Below are positions 13,705-47,631 of a DNA stretch of 64,000 nucleotides, in pieces; the stretch's first letter is position 1; each line of letters opens with the position of its first letter. Source of the DNA: Rhizophagus irregularis (Eukaryota > Glomeromycota > Glomeromycetes > Glomerales > Glomeraceae); the NCBI RefSeq assembly GCF_026210795.1, contig NC_089449.1, positions 620,001 through 684,000 on the forward strand, read 5' to 3'. The notes below the pieces were generated by a model. The model had not been told where the DNA came from and searched no databases. It worked only from the letters and a program-made list of their open reading frames with translations. The translations under genes and the position numbers were made by a program.

Positions 13705-15127
13705 GTGAATGCTGCGATTGAATTTGTTGAGGAAATTGAGATTGTTGCGATTGAATTTGTTGAGGAAATTGAGATTGTGGCGATTGAATTTGTTGAGGAA
13801 ATTGAGATTGTGGCGATTGAATTTGTTGAGGAAATTGAGATTGTTGCAATTGAATTTGTTGAGGAAATTGAGATTGTTGCGATTGAATTTGCTGAGGAAA
13901 TTGAGATTGTTGCGATTGAATTTGTTGAGGAAATTGAGATTGTTGCGATTGAATTTGTTGAGGAAATTGAGATTGTTGCGATTGAACTTGTTGAGGAAAT
14001 TGAGATTGTTGCGATTGAATTTGTTGAGGAAATTGAGATTGTACCGATTGAATTTGTTGAGGAAATTGAGATTATTGCGATTGAATTTGTTGAGGAAATT
14101 GAGATTGTTGCGATTGAATTTGTTGAGGAAATTGAGATTGTACCGATTGAATTTGTTGAGGAAATTGAGATTGTTGCGATTGAATTTGTTGAGGAAATTG
14201 AGATTGTTGCGATTGAATTTGTTGAGGAAATTGAGATTGTACCGATTGAATTTGCTGAGGAAATTGAGATTGTTGCGATTGAATTTGCTGAGGAAATTGA
14301 GATTGTACCGATTGAATTTGTTGAGGAAATTGAGATAGTTGCGATTGAATTTGCTGAGGAAATTGAGATTGTTGCGATTGAATTTGTTGAGGAAATTGGG
14401 ATTGTTGCGATTGAATTTGTTGAGGAAATTGGGATTGTTGCGATTGAATTTGCTGAGGAAATTGGGATTGTTGCGATTGAATTTGCTGAGGAAATTGAGA
14501 TTGTTGCGATTGAATTTGTTGAGGAAATTGAGATTGTTGCGGTTCAGCAAATTGAGATTGTTGCGATTGTTGCGAGTGAAGAGTTTGCAATTGCTGAGAT
14601 TGAATTTGTTGAGGAAATTGCACCTGAATTTGAGACAATTGCGATTGAATTTGTTGAGGAATGTGTGATTGAGCTAGTTGAAAAACTTGAAAAGGGAATA
14701 TTTGTTGAGAAATTTGTTGAGGAAGATGAGTAATTTGTTGCTGTAAAGAAGACATCATAAAATTATTCGGATTTACAATAGAACATTGTGTATTATTTGC
14801 AGAACAAAAGTGAGAAGATTCTTGAGTAGAAAAAGAGGTATCAGAAACAAATTGAGAATCGGAATAATCTTGATTGATATTTTCGTTTCCTTGCAAAGAA
14901 TAATGAGGATTAGAATCGTCATTATTATTTTGTACTTCCCCACCAGCTAAATAAGAACTATGGAGAGACACTGGATTTATGTTTTGATAAATAGCGTTAT
15001 TATTTCCATTTTGTATTTGATTCAAATATTGGGATTGTGATATAATGGGTAAACCGGTTAATGATTTAAGAGCCGCAGCGACAAGTGATGAATTTGAATT
15101 ATCAAAATTGTTGTTTGGAAATGCCAT
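13705..15127 (-). pseudogene. truncated copy of the Q-rich ubiquitin-like/ART gene
   Basis: Starts at the ATG at 15,127 and follows the intact gene at 27,061 almost residue for residue through the N-terminal 190 residues and into the 11-residue glutamine repeats. One repeat carries a CAA-to-TAA change (14,072-14,074) that ends the frame at 351 codons. Repeats continue to about 13,710; then the sequence leaves homology just after the CAGCATTCACAAC junction. The ubiquitin-like and ADP-ribosyltransferase-like domains are missing. The gene's upstream sequence is interrupted by the MITE at 15,436. A truncated, Q-rich peptide could still be expressed, but the enzyme half is lost. Confidence 0.8.
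13712..14545. repeat. 33-bp minisatellite, about 25 units
   Basis: Tandem 33-bp units that on the minus strand encode QFPQQIQSQQS-like 11-mers. Most differences between units are single substitutions, so every frame on both strands stays largely open. This creates long spurious ORFs on the plus strand. The unit number is about twice that of the intact gene at 27.6 kb. Confidence 0.9.
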
Positions 15128-26765: not shown

Positions 26766-27060
26766 TATATATATGAAAAAAATGATATATATTTAGTGAT
26801 AATATATCTTTAGAGATATATCTTAGCTAATTTAAATATAACCAGCATTATAAAAAAATATAAAACCATGAAAACTAAGAAATTTTTCATAAAAAAAATT
26901 GTTTTTTTTTAACGTTTATAAATTCTATTTATGTAATAATGAATATCACTTTCTTGTATTCCAAAAATGGAAAGCGTTGAATGCAAATTTAATTTTCCAT
27001 TTAATTGAGTTTAAATATATATACACCATGGTTTTTCTCATAAAAAATAAAATATCAAAG

Positions 27061-28956
27061 ATGGCATTTCCCAACAACAATTTTGATAATTCAAATTCAT
27101 CACTTGTCGCTGCGGCTCTTAAATCATTAACCGGTTTACCCATTATATCACAATCCCAATATTTGAATCAAATACAAAATGGAAATAATAACGCTATTTA
27201 TCAAAACATAAATCCAGTATCTCTCCATAGTTCTTATTTAGCTGGTGGGGAAGTACAAAATAATAATGACGATCCTAATCCTCATTATTCTTTGCAAGGA
27301 AACGAAAATATCAATCAAGATTATTCCGATTCTCAATTTGTTTCTGATACCTCTTTTTCTACTCAAGAATCTTCTCACTTTTGTTCTGCAAATAATACGC
27401 AATGTTTTATTGTAAATCCGAATAATTTTATGATGTCTTCTTTACAGCAACAAATTACTCAACTTCCTCAACAAATTTCTCAACAAATATTCCCATTTCA
27501 ACAGCATATTGCCCAGAAATTTCAAGTTTTTCAACTAGCTCAATCACACATTCCTCAACAAATTCAATCGCAATTGTCTCAAATTCAGGTGCAATTTCCT
27601 CAACAAATTCAATCTCAGCAATCGCAAACTCTTCACTCGCTACAATCGCAACAATCCCAATTTCCTCAACAAATTCAATCGCAACAATCTCAATTTCCTC
27701 AACAAATTCAATCGGTACAATCTCAATTTCCTCAGCAAATTCAATCGCAACAATCCCAATTTCCTCAACAAATTCAATCGGTACAATCTCAATTTTCTCA
27801 GCAAATTCAATCGCAACAATCTCAATTTTCTCAGCAAATTCAATCGGTACAATCTCAATTTCCTCAGCAAATTCAATCGCAACAATCTCAATTTCCTCAA
27901 CAAATTCAATCGGTACAATCTCAATTTTCTCAGCAAATTCAATCGCAACAATCTCAATTTTCTCAGCAAATTCAATCGGTACAATCTCAATTTCCTCAGC
28001 AAATTCAATCGCAACAATCCCAATTTCCTCAACAAATTCAATCGCAACAATCCCAATTTTCTCAGCAAATTCAATCGCAACAATCTCAATTTTCTCAGCA
28101 AATTCAATCGCAGCATTCACAACAGTCACAAATTTCTCAACAAATCCAGCAAAATTCTAATCAAATTTCTCAAAAACCGACTATGATAGTCATTAGAATT
28201 TGTACGTTAAATGGACAAATAATTCCAATTAAAAATGTTCCAATTATCGCAAAAATTTCTGTCATAAAATTTCATATTGAAAGTAAAACTAGAATTCCAT
28301 CAAATCAACAACGATTGATTTATTCGGGAATTTTATTAAAAGATAATCTAACATTATTAGATTATAATATTTTAAATAATAATGCAATGATTAATTTGAT
28401 TGGTCAAAATAATGAAGTTATTAATTTTATCGATTCAGATTTCCTTGATCCGATGTATGATTGTGATTTTACGAATATTGTTGATGATAAAAAATTTATG
28501 AGGGGATCATACGAATATCACAGACCGTGCGGCTGGAAACGAATTGCAGTTAAAGTATTAAATAAATACGGAGATAATGCTTGGTTAGGTAAAGCAGCTA
28601 AAAAAGGATCTTGGCGTTATGAATCAGACCCAAACGAATGGCCTGTTTCTTATCATGGAACAGACAAATTTAATGCAAGATCAATTGCCGAAACTGGTTT
28701 TGATATTACGAGGGGAAAAAGATTTAAATTTGGATACGGAATTTATTCTACTCCTGATATCAATGTTGCGGCTTTATTTGCTAATAAATTTATTCATAAT
28801 AACGAAGTTTATTGTCTAGTATTTCAAAATAGAGTAAACCCTCAAACTTTAAATAAAATTAACACTAGTATCGGCGAATATTGGATTAGTCCAAAAAGTG
28901 ATGATATTAGACCCTACGGTATTTGTATTAAAAAACTTGGTAAAATTTATCCTTGA
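27061..28956 (+). CDS. Q-rich ubiquitin-like plus PARP-like ADP-ribosyltransferase protein
   Basis: 631 residues from the ATG at 27,061. Upstream frames do not stay in phase in the second copy, so this start is preferred. Residues 1-190 are N/Q/S-rich, then about 14 imperfect 11-residue repeats (QFPQQIQSQQS type) run to about residue 350. Residues 373-450 read as a ubiquitin-like fold (RICTLNGQIIPI start, QRLIYSGILLKDN, LLDYNI). The C-terminal part matches the H-Y-E ADP-ribosyltransferase pattern: YHGT with His532, GIYSTP with Tyr562, and GEYWIS with Glu606. PARP-like enzymes move ADP-ribose from NAD+ to targets; activity here is inferred from the triad. Intact, single open frame. The truncated copy at 13.7-15.1 kb lacks the catalytic half. 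The low-complexity repeats suggest condensate or aggregation-prone behaviour, which is inference. Confidence 0.75.
   Translation: MAFPNNNFDNSNSSLVAAALKSLTGLPIISQSQYLNQIQNGNNNAIYQNINPVSLHSSYLAGGEVQNNNDDPNPHYSLQGNENINQDYSDSQFVSDTSFSTQESSHFCSANNTQCFIVNPNNFMMSSLQQQITQLPQQISQQIFPFQQHIAQKFQVFQLAQSHIPQQIQSQLSQIQVQFPQQIQSQQSQTLHSLQSQQSQFPQQIQSQQSQFPQQIQSVQSQFPQQIQSQQSQFPQQIQSVQSQFSQQIQSQQSQFSQQIQSVQSQFPQQIQSQQSQFPQQIQSVQSQFSQQIQSQQSQFSQQIQSVQSQFPQQIQSQQSQFPQQIQSQQSQFSQQIQSQQSQFSQQIQSQHSQQSQISQQIQQNSNQISQKPTMIVIRICTLNGQIIPIKNVPIIAKISVIKFHIESKTRIPSNQQRLIYSGILLKDNLTLLDYNILNNNAMINLIGQNNEVINFIDSDFLDPMYDCDFTNIVDDKKFMRGSYEYHRPCGWKRIAVKVLNKYGDNAWLGKAAKKGSWRYESDPNEWPVSYHGTDKFNARSIAETGFDITRGKRFKFGYGIYSTPDINVAALFANKFIHNNEVYCLVFQNRVNPQTLNKINTSIGEYWISPKSDDIRPYGICIKKLGKIYP
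27640..28110 (+). repeat. 33-bp coding minisatellite, about 14 units
   Basis: Same 33-bp unit as at 13.7-14.5 kb. In-frame units alternate between CAACAA and GTACAA versions and between CCT and TCT codons, which shows expansion by two-unit blocks. Antisense frames of 158-224 codons through it are artefacts. Confidence 0.9.
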
Positions 28957-37215: not shown

Positions 37216-37284
37216 GAAAAAAAGTTCCTGTGTTTTAAATAGTTTTAAATATCATAACGAGTTTCGTTCCCAGTATATTCCCGG

Positions 37285-37893
37285 TGTAACACCTGAGCCC
37301 ATAGAGAATTATGTTTGCCACCTCAGGTATTAACAAAATGACTCTTTATTAATAATATAAATAAATACAATAATATGCTTGGTTTAATAACATTAAATAA
37401 CAAAATAAATAATTCATAACAAAATTCGTCTCATTTTCTCTCCTTTCCAAAAGGTGATCTTCTCGCCTTTTTATGTTTGTTTTTGTGTAACTAAATTCAT
37501 AATTTCGATTCATGGATTTAAATTATTAAAGTATTTCCATTGTTTTAAAGTATTTCCATTATCTTAATTTTGTATCCATCTGATCATCATGAACTCCTGA
37601 ATTGTGATTTATAATATTAACGTAGTGATCAACAAATTAATCACTTGACACCTCAGGTCACTTGATTTCATTCAATTTAGTATCTTTCGGATCTTCATTT
37701 ATCCTTAAATCTCGTGACTAATAGTTTAAGGTCATCACGGACCAATTACCTCAATCCATGTGATTATTAGTTTAACGACTTCTCGGTCCAATTAAAATAA
37801 AAATAAAAATAAGTTAAAATTTTATACACTAAGACTAAATGTAATACTGCGCCTCACAATTAATAAATTTACTAGATATACTACGGCATTACA
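37285..37893 (-). repeat. 3' LTR
   Basis: 609 bp, plus-strand start TGTAACACCTGAGC and end GGCATTACA. It appears identical to the LTR at 46,945-47,553. In element orientation this is the downstream LTR. Confidence 0.95.
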
Positions 37894-37905
37894 ACTATCC
37901 CCCGC
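37894..37905 (-). promoter_or_regulatory. polypurine tract
   Basis: On the minus strand GCGGGGGATAGT directly abuts the 3' LTR. A purine run here primes plus-strand synthesis in LTR elements. Confidence 0.75.
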
Positions 37906-37926
37906 ATAAAAATTTAATGCCCACAT

Positions 37927-37998
37927 TAAATTTATTCTAAGAATCGAACTCGTGTCTCGAAGTGGTAGGTGCGAATTATACCACTAAATCAAACATGC
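37927..37998 (-). pseudogene. tRNA-Gly-like relic in the element's 3' region
   Basis: The minus strand reads GCATG at the 5' end, then TTTAGTGGTATAATTC (D-arm/A-box-like), CACCTACCAC (anticodon region) and GAGTTCGATTC (T-arm/B-box). The order and spacing resemble eukaryotic tRNA-Gly. The acceptor stem and part of the T stem do not pair, so it is not a working tRNA. It lies about 35 nt before the polypurine tract. Confidence 0.45.
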
Positions 37999-38230
37999 AT
38001 TGTCACTTGACTCAGCTGCGTTTTAAATATTCCTTTTTGCTGCGTCTACATCTGCGGTTTATCATGTGTTTGTTAAGTCTACGGTTTTCCTGTACCGGAT
38101 TTCACTTCGGTCTTTCTTAGGAAATTTTCATTAGTTTTTCCTATTTTCGAAAATTATTTTTATGTCATGTGATTTTATTTCACATGATTATAAATTATCT
38201 TTATTTTTCTAAGTCCATTGATGATAGTTA

Positions 38231-40012
38231 TCATTTACTCATCGGTGTATAGTAAGTCTTTAATAATTCTCCATTTACAGGTATCTTCTTGATGACACCT
38301 TTAATATTTTTAATTCTATAAGCTCCATTCGGTAGTATTTCATGAATGTAAAATGGTCCCAACCATTTTGATTCTAATTTTCCCGATAGTTGTTGTGCTT
38401 TGGCTTTATCATAGAGTAGTATTTTATCTCCAATTCCAAAGGTGTGTTCTTTGATTATTTTTCTGTCATGATACTCTTTTTGTTTTGTTTGAGATTTCAG
38501 TATTTGTTCTTTGGCTTCTTGTCGGATTTTTGGTAGTTCTTCTAATAATCCAACTATTCTATCGTTTAGGTTAATTTCTTTGACATTTTCATCCATTATT
38601 GTCCGTACATTTCTTCCGTATGTTAAATAAAATGGTCGAATTCTTGTTGAACTATGCTTTTTATTTCGGTAAGCAAATAATATGGGTGCTATCCTTTGAT
38701 CCCAATCATCTTTGGTTGATAATTTTGCTAATGCTTGACCTAATGTTCGGTTGAATCTTTCAACAAGTCCGTTTGTCTCTGGATGATAACTTGTAGAAAA
38801 ATTCCATTTAATTTTGAATTTTTCCATTAATTCCTTAATCATTTCATTATTGAAATGACTTCCTCTATCACTCAATATTTTCATTGGACATCCATGTCTA
38901 CAAATGATGTCTTCATAAATAAATTTTGATACTTCTTTGGCAGTTGCTTCTTTTACTGCTTTGGCTTCTGGCCATTTTGTGAAATAATCCATTGCTACTA
39001 TGATGTATTTATTACCATTTGTTGTTGTGTTCAATGGTCCAACAAAGTCAATCCCGATTTGATACCATGGTTCTACTACTTTAATTGGGTGTAATTCATT
39101 TTTCCCTTGTGGTTTTCCTCTTCTTTGACATTCATCACATGTCCTTACATATCTTTCAACATCATTCAGCATATTTTCCCAATAATATTTATCTTTTAAA
39201 TTATCATAAGTACTTTCGATTCCCATATGTGCCGATAATTCATGACTGTGAGCTAAATATAGTGCTCCCATCTTTTCAAAGTCTTCTATTATTCTGATGT
39301 TTTTACCATTTTTCTCAATATGCTTTTTACCATCAGTTACTCTGATGTTATCCTTAATCTCAACATTTTTAACCTCTATTGGTGGTTTATCTCCGTCTAA
39401 TTCTATTATTTTATTATATACTCTTTCCCAATCTGTGTCATTATTTGATATTTTAATATTAGCATATTTTTCTCCTTCGTAAATATCTTGACATTCTTTA
39501 AATGATTTCACCATCTCCATATATCTTTCTTCATCTAATAATGGGTATGATGTTTTATGTCCTTGATCCTTTTTCGAATATTCTCTACCTTTGTAATTTT
39601 CCCAACATTTTTCATTTTCTAAAAATATCACTATTGATTCATCAATTATCCTTTTGTTCCTAAATACTTCCTTTTCTAATAGGTGGTTCTCATATCTTGT
39701 TATGTATCCTCTGTCGAATGATGGTGTTTGTTGATAAAAGTACTCACTATAGGGACTTTTATCTAATATTAACCAATCCTCATTATCATGTTCTTCCATT
39801 CTCCTGTTGATTTGTTCGACAACTTCCTTCCTGAATTCCCATTCTATACCTTTCTTTGGTATTTTATACTTATCATTGTCCTCTCTTCTCCTTTTAAAGG
39901 TGTTAAACCTCACACTTTGTCCTACTTTTTCAAATTCTTTTATAAGTTTATTTACAATGAATGTTTTTCCAGTACCATCAACTCCACATATGATTATTAT
40001 TTTAGGTCCCAT
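38231..40012 (-). CDS. thymidylate-kinase-like domain fused to Ty3/gypsy integrase
   Basis: 593 residues from the ATG at 40,012. Residues 1-205 look like a (deoxy)nucleoside-monophosphate kinase: P-loop GVDGTGKT at 10-17, LILDKSPYSEYFYQ at 81-94 (resembling the thymidylate kinase D-R-x-x-x-S-x-x-x-Y-Q motif with Lys for Arg), and a basic lid-like stretch near 140-152. Residues about 245-300 form the integrase HHCC zinc domain (His257, His262, Cys292, Cys295). The catalytic core has Asp322, Asp382 and Glu418, with 35 residues between the last two. A GPF-type C-terminal module follows (WLGPFYIHEI, 550-559). Integrase inserts the cDNA; the kinase would phosphorylate dNMPs, perhaps raising dTTP supply for reverse transcription (inference). 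The start overlaps the upstream small ORF by 11 nt. The kinase has no obvious parallel in standard Ty3/gypsy elements known to me. Confidence 0.9.
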   Translation of the reverse strand: MGPKIIIICGVDGTGKTFIVNKLIKEFEKVGQSVRFNTFKRRREDNDKYKIPKKGIEWEFRKEVVEQINRRMEEHDNEDWLILDKSPYSEYFYQQTPSFDRGYITRYENHLLEKEVFRNKRIIDESIVIFLENEKCWENYKGREYSKKDQGHKTSYPLLDEERYMEMVKSFKECQDIYEGEKYANIKISNNDTDWERVYNKIIELDGDKPPIEVKNVEIKDNIRVTDGKKHIEKNGKNIRIIEDFEKMGALYLAHSHELSAHMGIESTYDNLKDKYYWENMLNDVERYVRTCDECQRRGKPQGKNELHPIKVVEPWYQIGIDFVGPLNTTTNGNKYIIVAMDYFTKWPEAKAVKEATAKEVSKFIYEDIICRHGCPMKILSDRGSHFNNEMIKELMEKFKIKWNFSTSYHPETNGLVERFNRTLGQALAKLSTKDDWDQRIAPILFAYRNKKHSSTRIRPFYLTYGRNVRTIMDENVKEINLNDRIVGLLEELPKIRQEAKEQILKSQTKQKEYHDRKIIKEHTFGIGDKILLYDKAKAQQLSGKLESKWLGPFYIHEILPNGAYRIKNIKGVIKKIPVNGELLKTYYTPMSK

Positions 40013-40241
40013 TTTTACATAATTCTGATAATTTTAGCTTGTTTACTTTACTTAATATCACCTCTATTTGTAATATTTCCTCTTGAGTTTCCAATATTAA
40101 TGGTCTTTCTTCACTATCTTCAAAATTTTTGGCTTTGAATTTATAGTTATAATTTATCCTGTTTAATTCCTTTGTTATACCTTCTAAATTTTCGATTATA
40201 TCCTTTATTTTATGATTTGTATTTCTTACCACTTGTTCCAT
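40002..40241 (-). CDS. 79-aa coiled-coil-like ORF between RNase H and kinase
   Basis: ATG at 40,241, in the same frame as RT-RNase H but 37 nt downstream of its stop, with a second in-frame stop between. The product is charged and helical (NHKIKDIIENLEGITKELNR region, EEILQIEVILSKVNKL). Its stop overlaps the kinase-integrase start (ATGGGACCTAA), which suits termination-reinitiation coupling. It could also be the N-terminal leftover of a once-continuous Pol. No known domain. Confidence 0.55.
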   Translation of the reverse strand: MEQVVRNTNHKIKDIIENLEGITKELNRINYNYKFKAKNFEDSEERPLILETQEEILQIEVILSKVNKLKLSELCKNGT

Positions 40242-40277
40242 TTTTATTTTTGAAAAGTAACTCTTTTACCCGTCTAT

Positions 40278-41759
40278 TTATATTATTCTTGATAAGGCAT
40301 CTGCATTTTTATTTTCTTTTCCTGGTCTATGGGTTATTTCAAAATCATACTGTTCCAATTCCATGACCCATCTTGATCTCTTTCCTTTTGGTACTTTTGC
40401 AGTCATTAATCCCTTCAAAGCTGCATGGTCTGTTACTACCTCAAATTTTCTATTGATCAAGTATTTATGGAAATGTTGTATTCCCCATACAATTGCATAA
40501 CATTCTTGTTCGGTTATTGGCCATCTCTGTTCTGTCCTGTTTAAACTTTTACTGGCATATTCTATTACGTATTCTTGACCTTTATCATCTTTTTGAGCTA
40601 ACACTGCCCCTAATCCTATTCCTGAAGCATCTGTAATTAATATAAATTTCCTTAACCAATCTGGTTGTCTTAACACTGGTTCTTCGGTTAATTTCCTTTT
40701 TAATATTTCTAATGCTTCATGTTGTTTGATGCCCCATTCAAACTTTTCGTCTTTTCTCAATAAAGATGTTATTGGTTTTACTATTTTTGAAAAATCTTTA
40801 ATAAATTTTCTATAATACGTACATAACCCCAATATTGACCTTACACCTTTTATATTTATAGGTGCTGTTAATTTTTGAATCTTTTCAACCTTTCCTGGAC
40901 TTGGTTTTAATCCATTTTTACCAACTACATGTCCTAAAAATTCTATTTCTGTTTTTCCAAATATACATTTCTTTAACTTTAGTATTAAACTGGCTTCCTT
41001 TAATTTTTCTAACACTAACTTTATGTGTTTTAGGTGGTCTTCAAAATTTTCCGAATATATCATTATATCATCAATGTATACTATCACAAATTCATTTAGG
41101 TACTCCTTTAATACTTTATCCATTAACCTTTGAAAACTTGCAGGCGCATTTGTTAACCCAAATGGCATGACATTATATTCATATAATCCTGCTGAGCATA
41201 TGAATGCTGTTTTCTCAATATCTTCCTCAGCCATTTCTATCTGATTAAACCCTGATGCTAAATCTAGACTGGTAAACCATTTTCCTGAACTTATCCTTTC
41301 TAATTGTTCATCAATCCTCGGTAATGGATATGCATCTGTTATTGTAACTTTATTTAATTTTCTATAGTCGATGCAAAATCTATAATTTCCCGACTTTTTC
41401 CCTGCTAAAGTCACTGGTGAAGACCATGGACTTCTAGATTCTCTAATTTTTCCCAATTTTAACATCTCGTCAACCTCTTTTCTGATGAATTTACCTTTTT
41501 CATCATTTTCTTTGTACCTCTTTTGGGCTATTGGTTCAGTACCCCCTTTTAATCTGATTTCATGTTTTACTAGGTTTGTCCTATTATATTTTTCACCATC
41601 GTACTCAAATATATCCTTATATTTTTCTACTAATACTTTTAATTTACCTTTTTGTTCATTGGTTATGTCCCCTACTTTAAATTTTTCAGTAAATTTTTCA
41701 TGGTCACTTTTGTGCTTCTTTATCGTCTCTTCAGTATCATTCTGACCAAGACTTATACT
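40278..41759 (-). CDS. reverse transcriptase and RNase H
   Basis: Open frame of 493 codons from just after an in-frame TAA at 41,762-41,760. The first ATG (41,465) lies inside the RT domain, so this product must come from upstream translation. Numbered from that ATG: SPWSSPV at 12-18, DYRKLN at 33-38, catalytic Asp68 in LDLASGF, YIDD at 130-133, then thumb and connection. RNase H carries Asp279, Glu321, Asp346 and Asp389. The order RT-RNase H matches Ty3/gypsy. The frame is -1 relative to protease, and the overlap is only a few nucleotides. It ends SRII then TAA, so RT is separated from integrase. Confidence 0.92.
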   Translation of the reverse strand, partial: SISLGQNDTEETIKKHKSDHEKFTEKFKVGDITNEQKGKLKVLVEKYKDIFEYDGEKYNRTNLVKHEIRLKGGTEPIAQKRYKENDEKGKFIRKEVDEMLKLGKIRESRSPWSSPVTLAGKKSGNYRFCIDYRKLNKVTITDAYPLPRIDEQLERISSGKWFTSLDLASGFNQIEMAEEDIEKTAFICSAGLYEYNVMPFGLTNAPASFQRLMDKVLKEYLNEFVIVYIDDIMIYSENFEDHLKHIKLVLEKLKEASLILKLKKCIFGKTEIEFLGHVVGKNGLKPSPGKVEKIQKLTAPINIKGVRSILGLCTYYRKFIKDFSKIVKPITSLLRKDEKFEWGIKQHEALEILKRKLTEEPVLRQPDWLRKFILITDASGIGLGAVLAQKDDKGQEYVIEYASKSLNRTEQRWPITEQECYAIVWGIQHFHKYLINRKFEVVTDHAALKGLMTAKVPKGKRSRWVMELEQYDFEITHRPGKENKNADALSRII

Positions 41760-42280
41760 TTAAAATTTTCATCTTCCTGACCTTCATGGTCATCTTCATA
41801 TATGTTATACAATTTATCCTGGTATAATTCTTCTAATATTTCCTCTTCATCAAATGTTTCTTCAAACCCTTTAATGGTCCTTTGTGTGTATTTTACTGGT
41901 ATATCCATAGTTTCATCATTCATTCTAATTATTATTGTTTTATCTGTGTAATCTATATTTGCTCTGAACATATCTAATACTCCATTTCCTAACACAATTT
42001 CGTTTTTTCCTGAATCAATTACTTCAACCTTAATGGGTATTTCCTTATCCCCAAATTGTATGTATATTGTCGTGGTACCCCTAGATGCTAATTTATCCTC
42101 ATTTATCATCACACATCTTACTGTACTTGGTTCCTCAATTTTTAGGTCCATTTCATCCATTATCTGACTAGTTATTACATTTACTGCTGCTCCTGTATCA
42201 AACATTACGTCCTTTAATTCTTGGTTTATTATTAATTTACCTCTTAATGCAGTTAAATGTTCTGCTTCAATGTTGTTCAT
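41753..42280 (-). CDS. retropepsin-type aspartic protease
   Basis: 175 residues from the ATG at 42,280. The catalytic motif is FDTGAAVNVI (D-T-G at about residues 28-30), and the flap and later IVLGNGVLDMF segment match the retropepsin ILG motif. The frame is the same as Gag and is separated only by the TGA at 42,293, so a Gag-protease fusion needs only stop readthrough. The C-terminus is acidic. It processes the polyprotein in virus-like particles, as in other LTR elements. Confidence 0.85.
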   Translation of the reverse strand: MNNIEAEHLTALRGKLIINQELKDVMFDTGAAVNVITSQIMDEMDLKIEEPSTVRCVMINEDKLASRGTTTIYIQFGDKEIPIKVEVIDSGKNEIVLGNGVLDMFRANIDYTDKTIIIRMNDETMDIPVKYTQRTIKGFEETFDEEEILEELYQDKLYNIYEDDHEGQEDENFKV

Positions 42281-42289
42281 TGATTCTTG

Positions 42290-42295
42290 TAGTCA
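42290..42295 (-). promoter_or_regulatory. putative stop-codon readthrough site, UGA CUA
   Basis: Gag ends with TGA followed directly by CTA and then CAA GAA TCA ATG in the protease frame. UGA followed by CUA is a well-known leaky context in viral and cellular readthrough genes. Readthrough would fuse Gag to protease. Confidence 0.6.
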
Positions 42296-45200
42296 ATCTG
42301 TTTGTGGATACCTTCTCATACCATCATAATATATTTTTCTTTGTTCTGGGCTCATATCTATAATTTGTGAAAAAGTTGCATTTGCTCTGGTACTTTTCAT
42401 ATCCTCTAATACGTTATATTTTGGTATATTTCTTTGAAATGCGCTTGTCCTATGAATACCTTCAACACGTTCATTTTTACATTGTTTTGCATAGTGACCT
42501 CTTTGTCCACAATTTCCACATGTATTATTATTTCTCCTTGCTTCTTGTGCTTTCCTCAGACTTTCATCAGTGAATCCCCTTTTTGGTAATGCTGCTGCCC
42601 TTTCCTCTTGGCTTGCATATTTATTATTTCTTCTTCGTGTTTGTTCTTGGTCAATTTCCATATCTACATCTCGATTACTTGACCTATTTTTTATGTTACT
42701 TCTTGTTTGTCTTTCACCAATATAAAAATCTTGATCAACATGGTTAAATGTTACATCGTTATCTTGATAATACGGGTCGTCATAACTATATCCTTGATCA
42801 TAATTATCCTGATAATCCTGACTATCATAATCATATTGGTCATATTGGTCATTATAATTATCATATTCCACTACATTGAATCCTCGATTATTGTTTTGGT
42901 GGTTTGGTGGTCTGTTATAGTTATTTGGTCTTCCATTATAGTTATTTGATCTTCTATTATAATTTTGATTATTTGGTCTTCCATAGTTTCTTTGACCATT
43001 ATTTACCCTACATTCATTTGCATAATGTCCTGGTTGTTTACAATTATAACATGCTCGAGGTGGTGGTCCTTGTCTATTATTATTGTTTGGTGGTCTCTTT
43101 TGCCCTCCAAGTTGATTTACTAGTTTTACCTCTAATTTTTTAAACATGTCGGCAAGGTCATCCTCATAATTTTTCTCCAATGGTTTTTCAAATATATTCT
43201 TTGGTTTGTCATCTTGTATATCGATTCCTTTTCTTTGGGTACTAACTGATATACCACGTGTCTTTCTTATTAATTCATTAGTAGCTTCCTCTTCTCTTCT
43301 TGCTGTATTCACTGCATCATTTAAATTTGCTGGGTTTTGTCTTCTGACTTGATATCCCAATGTTGGTGTTAATCCTTCGATATAATTATCCACTTGTAAT
43401 TCATCATCTAATGCATGGCCTCTGGTAGCTATCCTTAATATTTGTCTAAACCTTATCGTATATGCCTCAACATTTTCATTTACTCCTTGTGTTATTTTCC
43501 TTAATTCTAACATTTTCCTTTTTCTAACATCTTCCCTGGTAAATCTTTGTTTAATCCTATGTTTTAAATCATTATCATTATCATTGTCTGCCCAATTTAC
43601 TAAATGTCCATTATTTGCTTCCTTCTTTTCATTATACCATTGTGCTGCTGCACCTTTCAAACAGGTAGCTGCCATTGCTGCTTGTCTAACTCCATTTACT
43701 CCTGCTGCTTTTCCTATAGCAGTAAATGCTGTTTCAAATTGTCTTACCCAATCGTTTATGTCTTCTTCTTCCCTTCCATAAAATTGTGGCATACTAATTA
43801 TTCCTCCAGCTACATTTCCTGCATCCTCAATTGCATTTGCTAATGGGTTGGCTGCGACTAATCCAGCCCAATTACCTCCTATATCATGTCCTGTTGCTGC
43901 TAGTAAAGCCGCTCTAAAATCTTCCCTTACTTCAGCTCTTGTTGCTCCCATAATTATTGGTACTATTGGTAGAATTGGTGGTATCGGTGGTGTTAAAGGT
44001 GTTTCAAATAAATTTTCTATATTATAATCAGATATTTCACTTTTATCCTCAGAGTTTGATTCTGAACTTTCACTTGAGTCAAAACCAGGTCTATTTATAA
44101 TGTTTTCTTCATAAGGTTCTTCAAAATTTTCATTGTTATCGGTATCATTTGGATTTAAAATTTCTCCGTCTTTTCCAGATCCATCTGATTCTTTTTCAGA
44201 TCCATCAGATTTTTCATTATCAGATTCATTTCCACTACTTTCACTATCCTCAATTCCAGCTTGCTGTTTTAGAAATTTATCTAATATTCGCCTTAAATTT
44301 TTCTCCATTTCATTTTTATTTCCTTGGAATATTTCAATAAATTCTTGATCCAATATTTCTCCATCAGTATATCCCATACTGATTAACCTCAATAACTCTC
44401 CATTAGTTATTCCTATTTTATTATCATCACATATTTGTTTTAATCTTTTAACCCTGATATCAATTTCATTTTCGTCATTTTCACAATCCCTACACTTGGT
44501 TTTTCCTTCGTCAAATTTATTGTTTATCCATCTTATTCCACATTCATTACAAAATGTGGTATTTTCATTTATCCATTCATATAATTTTATCCTTAATTCT
44601 TTGTCATTCGTATTAATTTCCTGGAAATATTTTTCCATAAATTCCGTTGTTAATATTATACTATTGCTTATCCTGAATTCTCTTATTCTCTCTATTTCTG
44701 ACACATTTAATTCGTATCCTAGTTTTTCTAAGTCATCCTTTAATTCTAATAACTCTTTTTGTTCACAATTTTTACATTGTCCAATGTCTGCTATCATATC
44801 AGGTAACTTTCTATTTCTACAATTTCCACATCTTAATGTTTCTTTTGTTAACCATTCATTTATTTCATCCTTCAATTTTTCATCACTTAATCCCATTAAT
44901 TCGGAAAATGTACCTAAAAAGTCCTCTGTTAATATCAATTCTATCCTTATCCTTAGGTCCCACATTCTTTGTATATCTTTGTCAGTGAACCTTCCACCCA
45001 TTTCTTCAATTTTTCTTTTTAATGATTCTACTGTCCATTCGACATCATCCTCTATTTTTATTTCATAATGTATACTACCATCACTGTCCTCTAATTCATA
45101 ACTTTCAGGACTAGCACTTTCTGGGTCTTCAGGTTCCCTTGTAAATTGTTTGGTGTCAATAAATCTTTGTAACACTTTCCGTATCAATCTTTCCCATTCT

Positions 45201-45877
45201 TGTTGTTTTGATTCTCCCTCTCTTAATGGGTTCCTGTAAACAATTGTACCTGTTAAATCTATTACTTTTCCCATATTTTTAGCTATGTTTTCTTCCATGT
45301 ATAATAATTTCCTGAATATCACTATCGTTTCTGGTGTCGCATGGATTGCTTCCACCCTAAATTCTAATATTGAACCGTACCATTCCCAAAATTTTTGAAA
45401 TCTGTTTTCAACATCCCAATCTTCCAAAATATATCCATGTTCCATTATTTCTGGACATCCAATTAATCGATCAAATACTTCATTTTCCAAGTTTCCTTCA
45501 ATACAATCCCTTACAATTACTACAATTATTATTCTCAATCCTTTTTCCTTCATTTTTGGTTGTTGTCTGTACCTTATTGATTCAATTATTCTATCTACTA
45601 TATTCCTACATTTTCCCTTATGTATTGTATCCTCCCTTTCTCTATTGTCCATACTTAATAAATTCAATAATTCTTTATGTGTTACATTATTGTACATTAG
45701 TATTGTATCCTCGAATTTAAACAAAGCATCCCAAAATTTCTTGAATGCCGCTGATACTTCTCTTTCTATTGGGTTACATATTTCACATGCTAAACATTCC
45801 TCTGGTTCTATCACTCCTAGGTCATGTTCTTGTTTATGGTTTATATATTCAGCGTTCCAAACATGGTACCATTCCAT
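42293..45877 (-). CDS. giant Gag with triplicated CxxC module and two CCHC knuckles
   Basis: 1194 residues from the ATG at 45,877, long for a Gag. Residues about 280-540 hold three repeats of a roughly 90-residue helical module (pattern LTEDFLG / LTTEFME / LDQEFIE). Two of them end in CxxC pairs: Cys350/353/368/371 and Cys443/446/462/465, like zinc ribbons. An acidic serine-rich linker follows (545-625). A retrotransposon Gag capsid-like domain lies at about 690-870 (MPQFYGREEEDINDWVRQF start, AAAQWYN, IKQRFTREDV). CCHC zinc knuckles are at 943-956 and 1120-1133, separated by an Asn/Tyr/Asp-rich linker. Gag packages the RNA. The N-terminal 640 residues are not part of ordinary Ty3 Gags and their role is unknown. 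Confidence 0.9.
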   Translation of the reverse strand: MEWYHVWNAEYINHKQEHDLGVIEPEECLACEICNPIEREVSAAFKKFWDALFKFEDTILMYNNVTHKELLNLLSMDNREREDTIHKGKCRNIVDRIIESIRYRQQPKMKEKGLRIIIVVIVRDCIEGNLENEVFDRLIGCPEIMEHGYILEDWDVENRFQKFWEWYGSILEFRVEAIHATPETIVIFRKLLYMEENIAKNMGKVIDLTGTIVYRNPLREGESKQQEWERLIRKVLQRFIDTKQFTREPEDPESASPESYELEDSDGSIHYEIKIEDDVEWTVESLKRKIEEMGGRFTDKDIQRMWDLRIRIELILTEDFLGTFSELMGLSDEKLKDEINEWLTKETLRCGNCRNRKLPDMIADIGQCKNCEQKELLELKDDLEKLGYELNVSEIERIREFRISNSIILTTEFMEKYFQEINTNDKELRIKLYEWINENTTFCNECGIRWINNKFDEGKTKCRDCENDENEIDIRVKRLKQICDDNKIGITNGELLRLISMGYTDGEILDQEFIEIFQGNKNEMEKNLRRILDKFLKQQAGIEDSESSGNESDNEKSDGSEKESDGSGKDGEILNPNDTDNNENFEEPYEENIINRPGFDSSESSESNSEDKSEISDYNIENLFETPLTPPIPPILPIVPIIMGATRAEVREDFRAALLAATGHDIGGNWAGLVAANPLANAIEDAGNVAGGIISMPQFYGREEEDINDWVRQFETAFTAIGKAAGVNGVRQAAMAATCLKGAAAQWYNEKKEANNGHLVNWADNDNDNDLKHRIKQRFTREDVRKRKMLELRKITQGVNENVEAYTIRFRQILRIATRGHALDDELQVDNYIEGLTPTLGYQVRRQNPANLNDAVNTARREEEATNELIRKTRGISVSTQRKGIDIQDDKPKNIFEKPLEKNYEDDLADMFKKLEVKLVNQLGGQKRPPNNNNRQGPPPRACYNCKQPGHYANECRVNNGQRNYGRPNNQNYNRRSNNYNGRPNNYNRPPNHQNNNRGFNVVEYDNYNDQYDQYDYDSQDYQDNYDQGYSYDDPYYQDNDVTFNHVDQDFYIGERQTRSNIKNRSSNRDVDMEIDQEQTRRRNNKYASQEERAAALPKRGFTDESLRKAQEARRNNNTCGNCGQRGHYAKQCKNERVEGIHRTSAFQRNIPKYNVLEDMKSTRANATFSQIIDMSPEQRKIYYDGMRRYPQTD

Positions 45878-46924
45878 TTTTAATAAAATTCTCTAAAAAT
45901 TTTCGCGTCTTTTACTTTTTATCCTTCTTTTATATTTTATTTGACCTATACTGGGCTTGCCTTTACCTCATTTGTTCATTACTGAGTATGGTAGTTTACA
46001 GGTTTGTACAAATAAATTTATATTCCATAAAATTTTCCAACCTAAGGTTGAAGTGTGAATCCATATTTGATTTATCTCTTTCCTGTAATTTTCTCATATT
46101 TGTCCAGCAAATATTATTTTTAAAAAAAAAATTTTAATCATGATTTTTCTTGGGTACCCTCACACAGAATTGTTTTTGAAAGTTCACACAGAACTATTCT
46201 CAATTGATCACACAGAATACCTCAATTGAGTTCACACAGAAAAGCTCACACAGAACTATTCTCAATTGATCACACAGAAAACCTCAATTGAGTTCACACA
46301 GAATTATTCTCAATTGATCACACAGAAAACCTCAATTGAGTTCACACAGAATTACCCTACCATCGTATTTATAGTGTCGGTTTTTGGGTACACTTTTTAT
46401 CCTTAACTTAACCTCAATTATTTATAAAAATTATTTTTAATCCTTAATTCATGGAACTTATTTACAATATTCTATTAAAACCCCTTCTAACTTGATTAGC
46501 CTCGCATTTCCCTTGATAATCAATTACTACCATACATATTTGGTTCATATGTATGAAAATTATTATAATAATAATTTTTCATTGACTTATCAGCCGGTGG
46601 TCAAGTTAGATCAAAAATTTAATTTTTAACATTATCTCTTTATACATTTATGGTCATACTCACCCAAATTAATACCTTTTACCTTGGTAACCATTATTTT
46701 CACGTATCCTTTAAAATATTTAACTTTATTTTATTAAAATTTAACGTTAATACGCCTTAAATTTTTTTTCAACCAAGACTTAGAACTTTTAATTTTATAA
46801 TTCCTTAACTTCGTCGATCCTTTATTTGTAACTTCTAATGATCACGTGGGGGTGATCATTTTCTTTTCTCAGAGATCCTGTACTTATAACCTGTAGTGAT
46901 CATGTGAGGATGATCACTTTTCCT
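45878..46924 (-). promoter_or_regulatory. long leader with nine TCACACAGAA motifs
   Basis: About 1 kb of untranslated leader between PBS and Gag. At 46,161-46,355 the plus strand carries nine copies of TCACACAGAA, regularly interleaved with CTCAATTGAT and CTCAATTGAG (palindromic). A second pair of about 60-bp repeats, each with a TGATCA-GTG-GATGATCA-like block, lies at 46,838-46,935. No ORF. Such arrays can be protein-binding or RNA-packaging sites; here the role is unknown. Confidence 0.75.
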
Positions 46925-46942
46925 TTCTCGGAGCATGCACCA
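46925..46942 (-). promoter_or_regulatory. primer-binding site
   Basis: Two nucleotides inside the 5' LTR the minus strand reads TGGTGCATGCTCCGAGAA, beginning with the TGG complementary to a tRNA CCA end. I cannot name the tRNA from this sequence alone. Confidence 0.6.
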
Positions 46943-46944
46943 CT

Positions 46945-47553
46945 TGTAACACCTGAGCCCATAGAGAATTATGTTTGCCACCTCAGGTATTAACAAAATG
47001 ACTCTTTATTAATAATATAAATAAATACAATAATATGCTTGGTTTAATAACATTAAATAACAAAATAAATAATTCATAACAAAATTCGTCTCATTTTCTC
47101 TCCTTTCCAAAAGGTGATCTTCTCGCCTTTTTATGTTTGTTTTTGTGTAACTAAATTCATAATTTCGATTCATGGATTTAAATTATTAAAGTATTTCCAT
47201 TGTTTTAAAGTATTTCCATTATCTTAATTTTGTATCCATCTGATCATCATGAACTCCTGAATTGTGATTTATAATATTAACGTAGTGATCAACAAATTAA
47301 TCACTTGACACCTCAGGTCACTTGATTTCATTCAATTTAGTATCTTTCGGATCTTCATTTATCCTTAAATCTCGTGACTAATAGTTTAAGGTCATCACGG
47401 ACCAATTACCTCAATCCATGTGATTATTAGTTTAACGACTTCTCGGTCCAATTAAAATAAAAATAAAAATAAGTTAAAATTTTATACACTAAGACTAAAT
47501 GTAATACTGCGCCTCACAATTAATAAATTTACTAGATATACTACGGCATTACA
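46945..47553 (-). repeat. 5' LTR (element orientation)
   Basis: 609 bp, no difference seen from the LTR at 37,285-37,893. Followed by CCGG, matching CCGG just before the other LTR. It should hold the promoter of the element. Confidence 0.95.
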
Positions 47554-47631
47554 CCGGTGTATCCTATTTTCCGGCTGCAGCTATCTAGTCATAAGGGTAA
47601 TCACCAGAAACACCATATCAGCGTGACTGTG

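Follow-up and report, generated by a model that had tools for sequence, protein, structure and literature searches.

A Ty3/gypsy retrotransposon of the arbuscular-mycorrhizal fungus Rhizophagus irregularis carries a nucleotide kinase domain in its Pol, between RNase H and integrase. The element lies in a 64,000-nucleotide stretch of contig NC_089449.1 (positions 620,001 to 684,000 of the forward strand; assembly GCF_026210795.1). This whole stretch is "the window", and its own numbering is used below. The capture of the kinase is real, selected, and repeated in a large retrotransposon lineage. As to what was captured and why, we lean towards the view that a Ty3/gypsy lineage took up a kinase of the thymidylate-kinase/deoxynucleoside-kinase superfamily, and that this enzyme makes precursors of deoxynucleoside triphosphates (dNTPs) for reverse transcription.

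A kinase and an integrase in one reading frame

The minus strand from 40012 to 38231 is a single open reading frame (ORF) of 593 codons, with its ATG at 40012 and a stop codon that ends at 38231. A first-pass annotation, made from the sequence alone, gave this uninterrupted ORF its correct length and coordinates and the wrong strand: read on the plus strand, the same interval is full of stops. The two kinase motifs that it described are present in the minus-strand translation, with the P-loop GVDGTGKT from residue 10 and DKSPYSEYFYQ from residue 84. It also described a complete Ty3/gypsy integrase, and we agree. Integrase_H2C2 (64.2 bits; cut-off 25.5) and rve (42.3 bits; cut-off 32.6) both exceed their Pfam cut-offs, the zinc-binding motifs HELSAHMG and CDECQRRG begin at residues 257 and 292, and the catalytic residues D322, D382, and E418 are in place. 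According to profiles and the predicted fold, the kinase-type domain spans residues 1-206 (39395-40012). The integrase spans residues 207-593 and the stop codon (38231-39394), and its SH3-like C-terminal region is a weak Pfam match. The kinase-integrase ORF is confirmed as real.

The kinase recurs across the genome and in other species

We compared residues 1-205 of the ORF to the raw six-frame translation of the genome (146.7 Mb in 32 contigs). The kinase matches at 151 places, from near-identical copies down to 55-62% identity and less, so chance is excluded. (The counts below are for the best 150 of the 151 matches, including the window copy.) Of these, 36 are at least 90% identical, one of them over just 43 residues, and 22 of the 36 sit in an open frame of at least 600 codons. 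Near-full matches, which start by residue 4 and reach residue 200 or beyond, account for 128 of the 150; 121 of the 128 are free of stops, and 93 are 55-62% identical. Matches outside the group with at least 90% identity and the near-full group at 55-62% are partial or more diverged.

The kinase also keeps its company. For 102 of the 105 best matches of the element's reverse transcriptase (RT), a kinase lies on the same strand no more than 3.5 kb away, so these searches did not turn up full-length copies that lack the segment. For the remaining three (C13:673416, C4:2355777, and C25:3505767), the kinase is about 16, 5, and 10 kb downstream, and the C4 case (locus L040) has an interruption inside RT. 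Similarly, 96 of the 107 best integrase matches are accompanied by a kinase. Ten of the 11 without one adjoin RT matches of a single family, and the other is at C25:3097091. Among pairs of RT, kinase, and integrase within 2.5 kb of each other, we saw no violation of the order, and 13 of the 15 loci L035-L049 show the full succession from RT-RNase H through kinase to integrase. (At L049, integrase was not found in the stretch that was read.) Wherever all three domains were found, the kinase lies between RNase H and integrase, as had been proposed. L043 (3657-5585) is a rearranged copy: its Gag continues directly into the kinase (open over 951 codons), the locus's own RT is missing, and the kinase and integrase stay open.

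Among predicted proteins, residues 1-205 match P0001 of R. irregularis at 100%, and the kinase is also found in proteins of R. clarus, Glomus cerebriforme, and metagenomes. The association with Pol extends to these related genomes: P0020 of R. clarus joins RNase H, kinase, and integrase in one predicted protein. Several predicted proteins have the kinase without any Pol domain, though many of them come from short contigs.

What kind of kinase is it?

The curated Pfam cut-off is 27 bits for each of AAA_28, Thymidylate_kin (PF02223), and the deoxynucleoside kinase family PF01712. Within the whole ORF, the window's kinase scores 24.1 bits for AAA_28 and 18.2 bits for Thymidylate_kin, both below the cut-off; the domain alone scores 27.0 and 21.4 bits. 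The "thymidylate kinase" family of PHROG, phrog_761, covers residues 3-197 of the domain (E = 9e-13). As for other copies, the predicted protein P0034 has Thymidylate_kin above the cut-off (28.9 bits), and PF02223 matches all nine sequences of our set A1 at E = 0.1 or better (best E = 2.6e-8). Some of these proteins are already named "thymidylate kinase" or "Thymidylate kinase-like domain" in the databases. When aligned by hhalign to six thymidylate kinases, which are weak matches of the same kinase profile, the element kinases gave 98.4% over 176 columns with 25% identity, which is full-length homology. A confident predicted model places the domain in the thymidylate-kinase/deoxynucleoside-kinase superfamily. 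(A sequence search of solved structures was uninformative: P-loops of FtsY came first, and thymidylate kinases matched at E = 0.3-0.9 over the P-loop only.)

The element kinases thus resemble thymidylate kinases (PF02223, TIGR00041, phrog_761) in full-length profile and fold matches and in the P-loop GVDGxGK[ST], which is of thymidylate-kinase type. The P-loop and the DKSPY residues are conserved across the kinase-bearing families. The spacing D....S...YQ is that of the acceptor motif of thymidylate kinases, with DKS where those enzymes have DR(Y/H). The element kinases differ from thymidylate kinases in their low identity (25%), in the scores of the window copy below curated cut-offs, and in their home inside a retroelement. 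Judged over all copies, thymidylate kinase appears to be the best assignment from sequence.

Kinase-family matches and a kinase fold for this part of the ORF bear out the first-pass annotation at the level of the superfamily: by profiles and by the predicted model, the domain is a member of the thymidylate-kinase/deoxynucleoside-kinase superfamily. Its narrower label, thymidylate-kinase-like, is tentative as to substrate, because in the fold comparison thymidylate kinase ties with deoxycytidine kinase, and the fold does not separate the two groups.

Proposed role in reverse transcription

Reverse-transcribing elements depend on the dNTPs of the host cell. Most likely, the kinase serves reverse transcription by phosphorylating deoxythymidine monophosphate (dTMP) or some other deoxynucleotide precursor. 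It would be produced as part of Pol, and released or not by the protease. It would then phosphorylate dTMP with ATP to the diphosphate (dTDP); another deoxynucleoside monophosphate or a deoxynucleoside is a less likely acceptor. Host nucleoside diphosphate kinase converts dTDP to dTTP, and it could do so with the dTDP from the element's kinase. The kinase might thereby ease the supply of dNTPs in arbuscular-mycorrhizal hyphae and spores, where dNTPs may be scarce.

Several observations weigh against this reading. The window copy scores best against AAA_28, a generic family, in Pfam and against PRK08233 in NCBIfam, with guanylate kinase ahead of dTMP kinase. In the fold comparison, deoxycytidine and deoxyguanosine kinases match as well as thymidylate kinase does. 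(Absence from the list of fold matches, as for polynucleotide kinases, does not exclude a family.) The basic run of the domain reads FRRKRE in the copy L039, so single K/R exchanges occur there. The host has thymidylate-kinase-like sequences of its own (PF02223 matches on contigs C24 and C13). Finally, in a yeast study of RNR regulators, higher dNTP levels raised the mobility of Ty1 via recombination and not via more cDNA (PMC3002893), so yeast Ty1 does not support a simple argument from dNTP supply.

If the domain were instead a deoxynucleoside kinase, acting in deoxynucleoside salvage, the benefit for dNTP supply would be much the same. Besides the equal structural matches, which include human deoxycytidine kinase, this is suggested by D-K-S-x-Y-S, which resembles the E/D-R-S motif of deoxynucleoside kinases, and by an hhalign match of 96.7% over 137 columns to a deoxynucleoside kinase gene of the same genome (L051). 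Yet the P-loop is of the other type, and both the P-loop and the basic region differ from those of deoxynucleoside kinases; the basic run after the second strand, at residues 40-43, would suit an acceptor that bears a phosphate. Also, PF01712 does not match the window ORF at E = 1 and is not in the best 25 of 46 families for the domain. (It reaches 18.7 bits in the kinase of P0116, a relative discussed below, where it is again below the cut-off.) We consider a deoxynucleoside kinase unlikely.

L051 (1185-2192, minus strand; G000:C28:1223987-1224991) is a frame of 335 codons with PF01712 at residues 130-327 (110.5 bits) and an N-terminal part that we could not name. It does not belong to the element kinases. 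Decayed pieces like it are found about 40 kb away (C28:1181428-1185579).

Fusion partners and relatives without the kinase

The kinase is fused to integrase in the window family, in P0009 of R. irregularis, and in P0020. Families whose frames run to about 700-780 codons have it joined to RT-RNase H instead, and one or more stops precede integrase. The kinase-integrase fusion in the first-pass annotation therefore describes these cases and is not general. What is constant is the position of the kinase in the element, not its fusion partner.

This bears on the idea that catalysis was lost and that the domain now serves Pol or integrase as a part that gives structure or binds nucleic acid, for example the primer tRNA, as relatives of KTI12 and PSTK might. 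KTI12 (PF08433) does match P0034 above the cut-off (25.8 bits, residues 35-118) and the window domain below it (18.6 bits, residues 5-203), and the window family does join the kinase to integrase. However, the conserved P-loop and DKSPY residues argue for catalysis, and since other families fuse the kinase to RT-RNase H with stops before integrase, it is unlikely to be an integrase accessory. We judge a non-catalytic role to be improbable.

A related family lacks the kinase. At L050 (C4:4248000-4255200), Gag, protease, RT-RNase H, and integrase are present, and the 198 bases between the RT stop and the ATG of integrase leave no room for a kinase. This kinase-less family persists: 22 RT matches are at least 93% identical to L050. 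The first-pass annotation implies that other copies of the element keep the kinase; this is so for nearly all of the best RT matches, and L050 is a related family that does without it. By eye, a stretch of about 45 codons that precedes the integrase of L050 is common to L035, where it is located between kinase and integrase. The Gag of L050 also resembles that of the window in its layout, again by eye. In L052, from a more distant Ty3 family, the listed frames are 410 bases apart, which also leaves no room for a kinase.

RT identity is 64-79% among the kinase-bearing families, 61-67% between them and L050, and 47-50% between them and L052, which puts L050 roughly as close to some kinase-bearing families as those are to each other. 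The tree of RT and integrase fits either acquisition of the kinase once L050 had diverged or its loss in L050 (approximately unbiased test, P = 0.35). L050 and its persistence, along with this tree, weigh against our favoured reading of the kinase. A single capture of the kinase is no more than a possibility, as RT and integrase fix no place for L050, whether outside the kinase lineage or within it.

The kinase is under selection and has moved as a cassette

We computed dN/dS (the ratio of nonsynonymous to synonymous divergence) between loci by the Nei-Gojobori method. For the kinase, dN/dS was 0.075-0.260 (43 of 55 pairs; pairs with dS of 0, dS of 2 or more, or no estimate were left out). It was 0.027-0.183 for RT-RNase H (21 of 21 pairs) and 0-0.310 for integrase (31 of 36 pairs). 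Many dS values exceed 1 and are near saturation, so these ratios between families are rough. In near-identical copies without stops, the corresponding polymorphism ratio (pN/pS) was 0.17 for the kinase (n = 29), 0.06 for RT (n = 26), and 0.13 for integrase (n = 20); the restriction to stop-free copies lowers all three. The kinase is under purifying selection, and the constraint is somewhat weaker than on RT.

The kinase of L037 and L048 was replaced by that of another family. The exchange covered about 600 bp, nearly edge to edge, and left the frame intact. The RT tree puts L037 and L048 together with L035 and L042 (support 100/100) and with L036 (83/90), and the integrase tree puts them with L036, L035, and L042 (100/99). 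In the kinase tree (22 rows; P0132 was left out), they group with L038, L047, and L043 (100/100). The DNA agrees: L037 is 70-89% like L036 before position ~6320 and 68-89% like it after ~7600, while over the kinase it is 84-93% like L038 versus 66-78% like L036. Between the kinase and integrase of L037 (6950-7570) lie about 600 bases that do not align in L036 or L038: an additional open stretch (SKMVLGDCYMNWF...) and then short repeats.

Captured gene fragments are common in LTR (long terminal repeat) elements, and L050 does without the kinase, so the domain might be a neutral passenger of an active element. But its dN/dS and pN/pS are far below 1 and close to those of RT and integrase, nearly all of its near-full copies are free of stops (121/128), and a swap of ~600 bp kept the frame; we find a passenger very hard to credit. 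That the kinase is an artefact of assembly or gene prediction has a negligible chance, as it appears at 151 places in raw six-frame DNA and in independent proteins from R. irregularis, R. clarus, G. cerebriforme, and metagenomes.

Where did the kinase come from?

A protein search for relatives of the kinase scored 7999 candidates, of which at least 112 reach E = 10 or better. Among the matches listed, P0116, P0130, P0132, and similar fragments come closest once the element kinases are set aside, and thymidylate kinases follow at E = 0.15 and worse. The three named proteins are about 28-40% identical to the element kinases. P0130 and P0132 carry an N-terminal NUDIX domain and, unlike the element, have no Pol domain in the predicted protein; P0116 is a kinase only. 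The NUDIX domain of P0132 is nearest to NUDT15 and MutT-type proteins. The alignment of P0130 to families with frames of 777 and 779 codons starts at residues 119-120. The P-loop core, at 157-161, comes about 35 residues later, which suggests that the linker is homologous as well. (The alignment to the 706-codon family starts at residue 145.) Probably, and most simply, the element took its kinase from a NUDIX-linker-kinase protein that serves nucleotide-pool metabolism, and the NUDIX half was lost upon capture. Alternatively, the transfer may have gone the other way, or P0130 may itself reside in a retroelement (its contig is 2.3 kb).

We rejected a phage or bacterial origin: no relative of the kinase was found in 50,697 phage records, nor in IMG/VR or the GTDB species genomes, which were searched with short peptide patterns that may miss distant kin. 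The match to phrog_761 does not imply a phage, because it is distant and because phrog_761 matches all 14 cellular control genomes. The host's own thymidylate kinase seems an unlikely source as well: the PF02223 matches on C24 and C13 are missing from the 150 kinase matches listed. Capture from an ancestral host thymidylate-kinase gene that has since been lost may have occurred. The strongest genomic match to Thymidylate_kin (L001 at ~1480-2200, on G000:C24) reads by eye as intron-bearing, with an odd P-loop, GCEDTNTT; it may be a degenerate kinase.

Comparison to known elements

To our knowledge, dUTPase is the sole enzyme of nucleotide pools known as a recurrent Pol domain. In fungi, a Ty3 Pol with dUTPase was described in Postia placenta and was stated to be known from Phanerochaete and Tuber (PMC2864245), and Ty3/gypsy elements of bdelloid rotifers also have a Pol dUTPase (PMC5408684). 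These elements, too, have an enzyme of nucleotide metabolism in Pol, at a position that varies among the fungal families, but theirs hydrolyzes dUTP and ours is a P-loop kinase. The dUTPase of retroviruses can likewise lie between RT and integrase (PMC5408684) and is thought to aid replication in non-dividing cells (PMC2864245); it is a different enzyme with a different reaction. The dUTPase family PF00692 has no match in the four ORFs of the window element at E = 1, and in this genome it matches at one place and in no repeat family.

The main text of a survey of fungal LTR elements, where available, contains neither "kinase" nor "dUTPase" (PMC3248453), and the examined text of two papers on R. 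irregularis repeats mentions no nucleotide kinase (PMC8647823, PMC11075540). Our literature search, which covered few subscription papers and did not extend to Repbase, found no paper on a nucleotide kinase in LTR retrotransposons or on a Rhizophagus thymidylate kinase. A broader claim is tentative, with a chance that we put just short of even: that this is the first nucleotide kinase to be a standing Pol domain of retroelements, derived from a NUDIX-kinase, fixed in a Ty3 lineage of Glomeromycotina, selected, traded as a cassette, and giving the element its own step of dTTP supply where others use dUTPase.

If the reading of a kinase in Pol is true, then the adaptation of elements to poor dNTP pools can be tested with a single protein. 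The kinase would also serve as a marker domain: it would tag a large lineage of recently active repeats in an arbuscular-mycorrhizal fungus whose transposable elements were described as two-thirds unclassified (PMC11075540). And it would be a case of an accessory enzyme that moves between element families as a cassette.

The surrounding element and other proteins of the window

The anatomy of the element is nearly certain. The kinase-integrase ORF is enclosed by a complete LTR element on the minus strand at 37285-47553. Its 5' LTR (46945-47553; TG...CA) and 3' LTR (37285-37893) are each 609 bp and are alike at 609 of 609 bases, so the insertion is recent. It is flanked by a target-site duplication, CCGG, at 37281-37284 and 47554-47557. 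A putative primer-binding site (46925-46942) begins with TGG two bases inside the 5' LTR, and a purine-rich stretch that adjoins the 3' LTR (37894-37905) is a putative polypurine tract. The ORFs upstream of the kinase, also on the minus strand, encode Gag (42293-45877, 1194 codons, with Retrotrans_gag at residues 735-837 and CCHC knuckles), an aspartic protease (41753-42280, 175 codons), and RT-RNase H (40278-41465, 395 codons from the first ATG). The open frame of RT-RNase H has 493 codons, so its start lies upstream of that ATG.

This order (LTRs, gag, protease, RT, RNase H, and then integrase) is that of Ty3/gypsy elements, and the best PDB match of RT-RNase H is that of Ty3 (E = 3.6e-93). 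The additional kinase domain of 206 residues departs from the standard Pol of protease, RT, RNase H, and integrase only. As extra Pol domains are known in the Ty3/gypsy group (PMC2864245), we consider the element to be a variant and do not exclude it from the group.

A 79-codon ORF at 40002-40241 (minus strand) continues the RT frame after two stops and overlaps the start of the kinase by 11 nucleotides (ATGGGACCTAA). We dropped it as a coding linker; it is broken in L039, a copy with 90% identity, so it is probably a decayed remnant of a linker between RNase H and kinase. In Gag, a long stretch before the capsid has repeated CxxC...CxxC units and no Pfam match above the cut-off. The leader between the 5' LTR and Gag has, at 46155-46350, overlapping copies of a 62-nucleotide unit that is rich in CACACAGAA and CTCAATTGA.

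Elsewhere in the window, two related proteins with Q-rich repeats are encoded at 27028-28956 (plus strand) and 14072-15127 (minus strand). In the first, PF00240 marks a ubiquitin domain (50.4 bits), and a further end of the protein could not be named. Long open frames are also present on the strand opposite the second.
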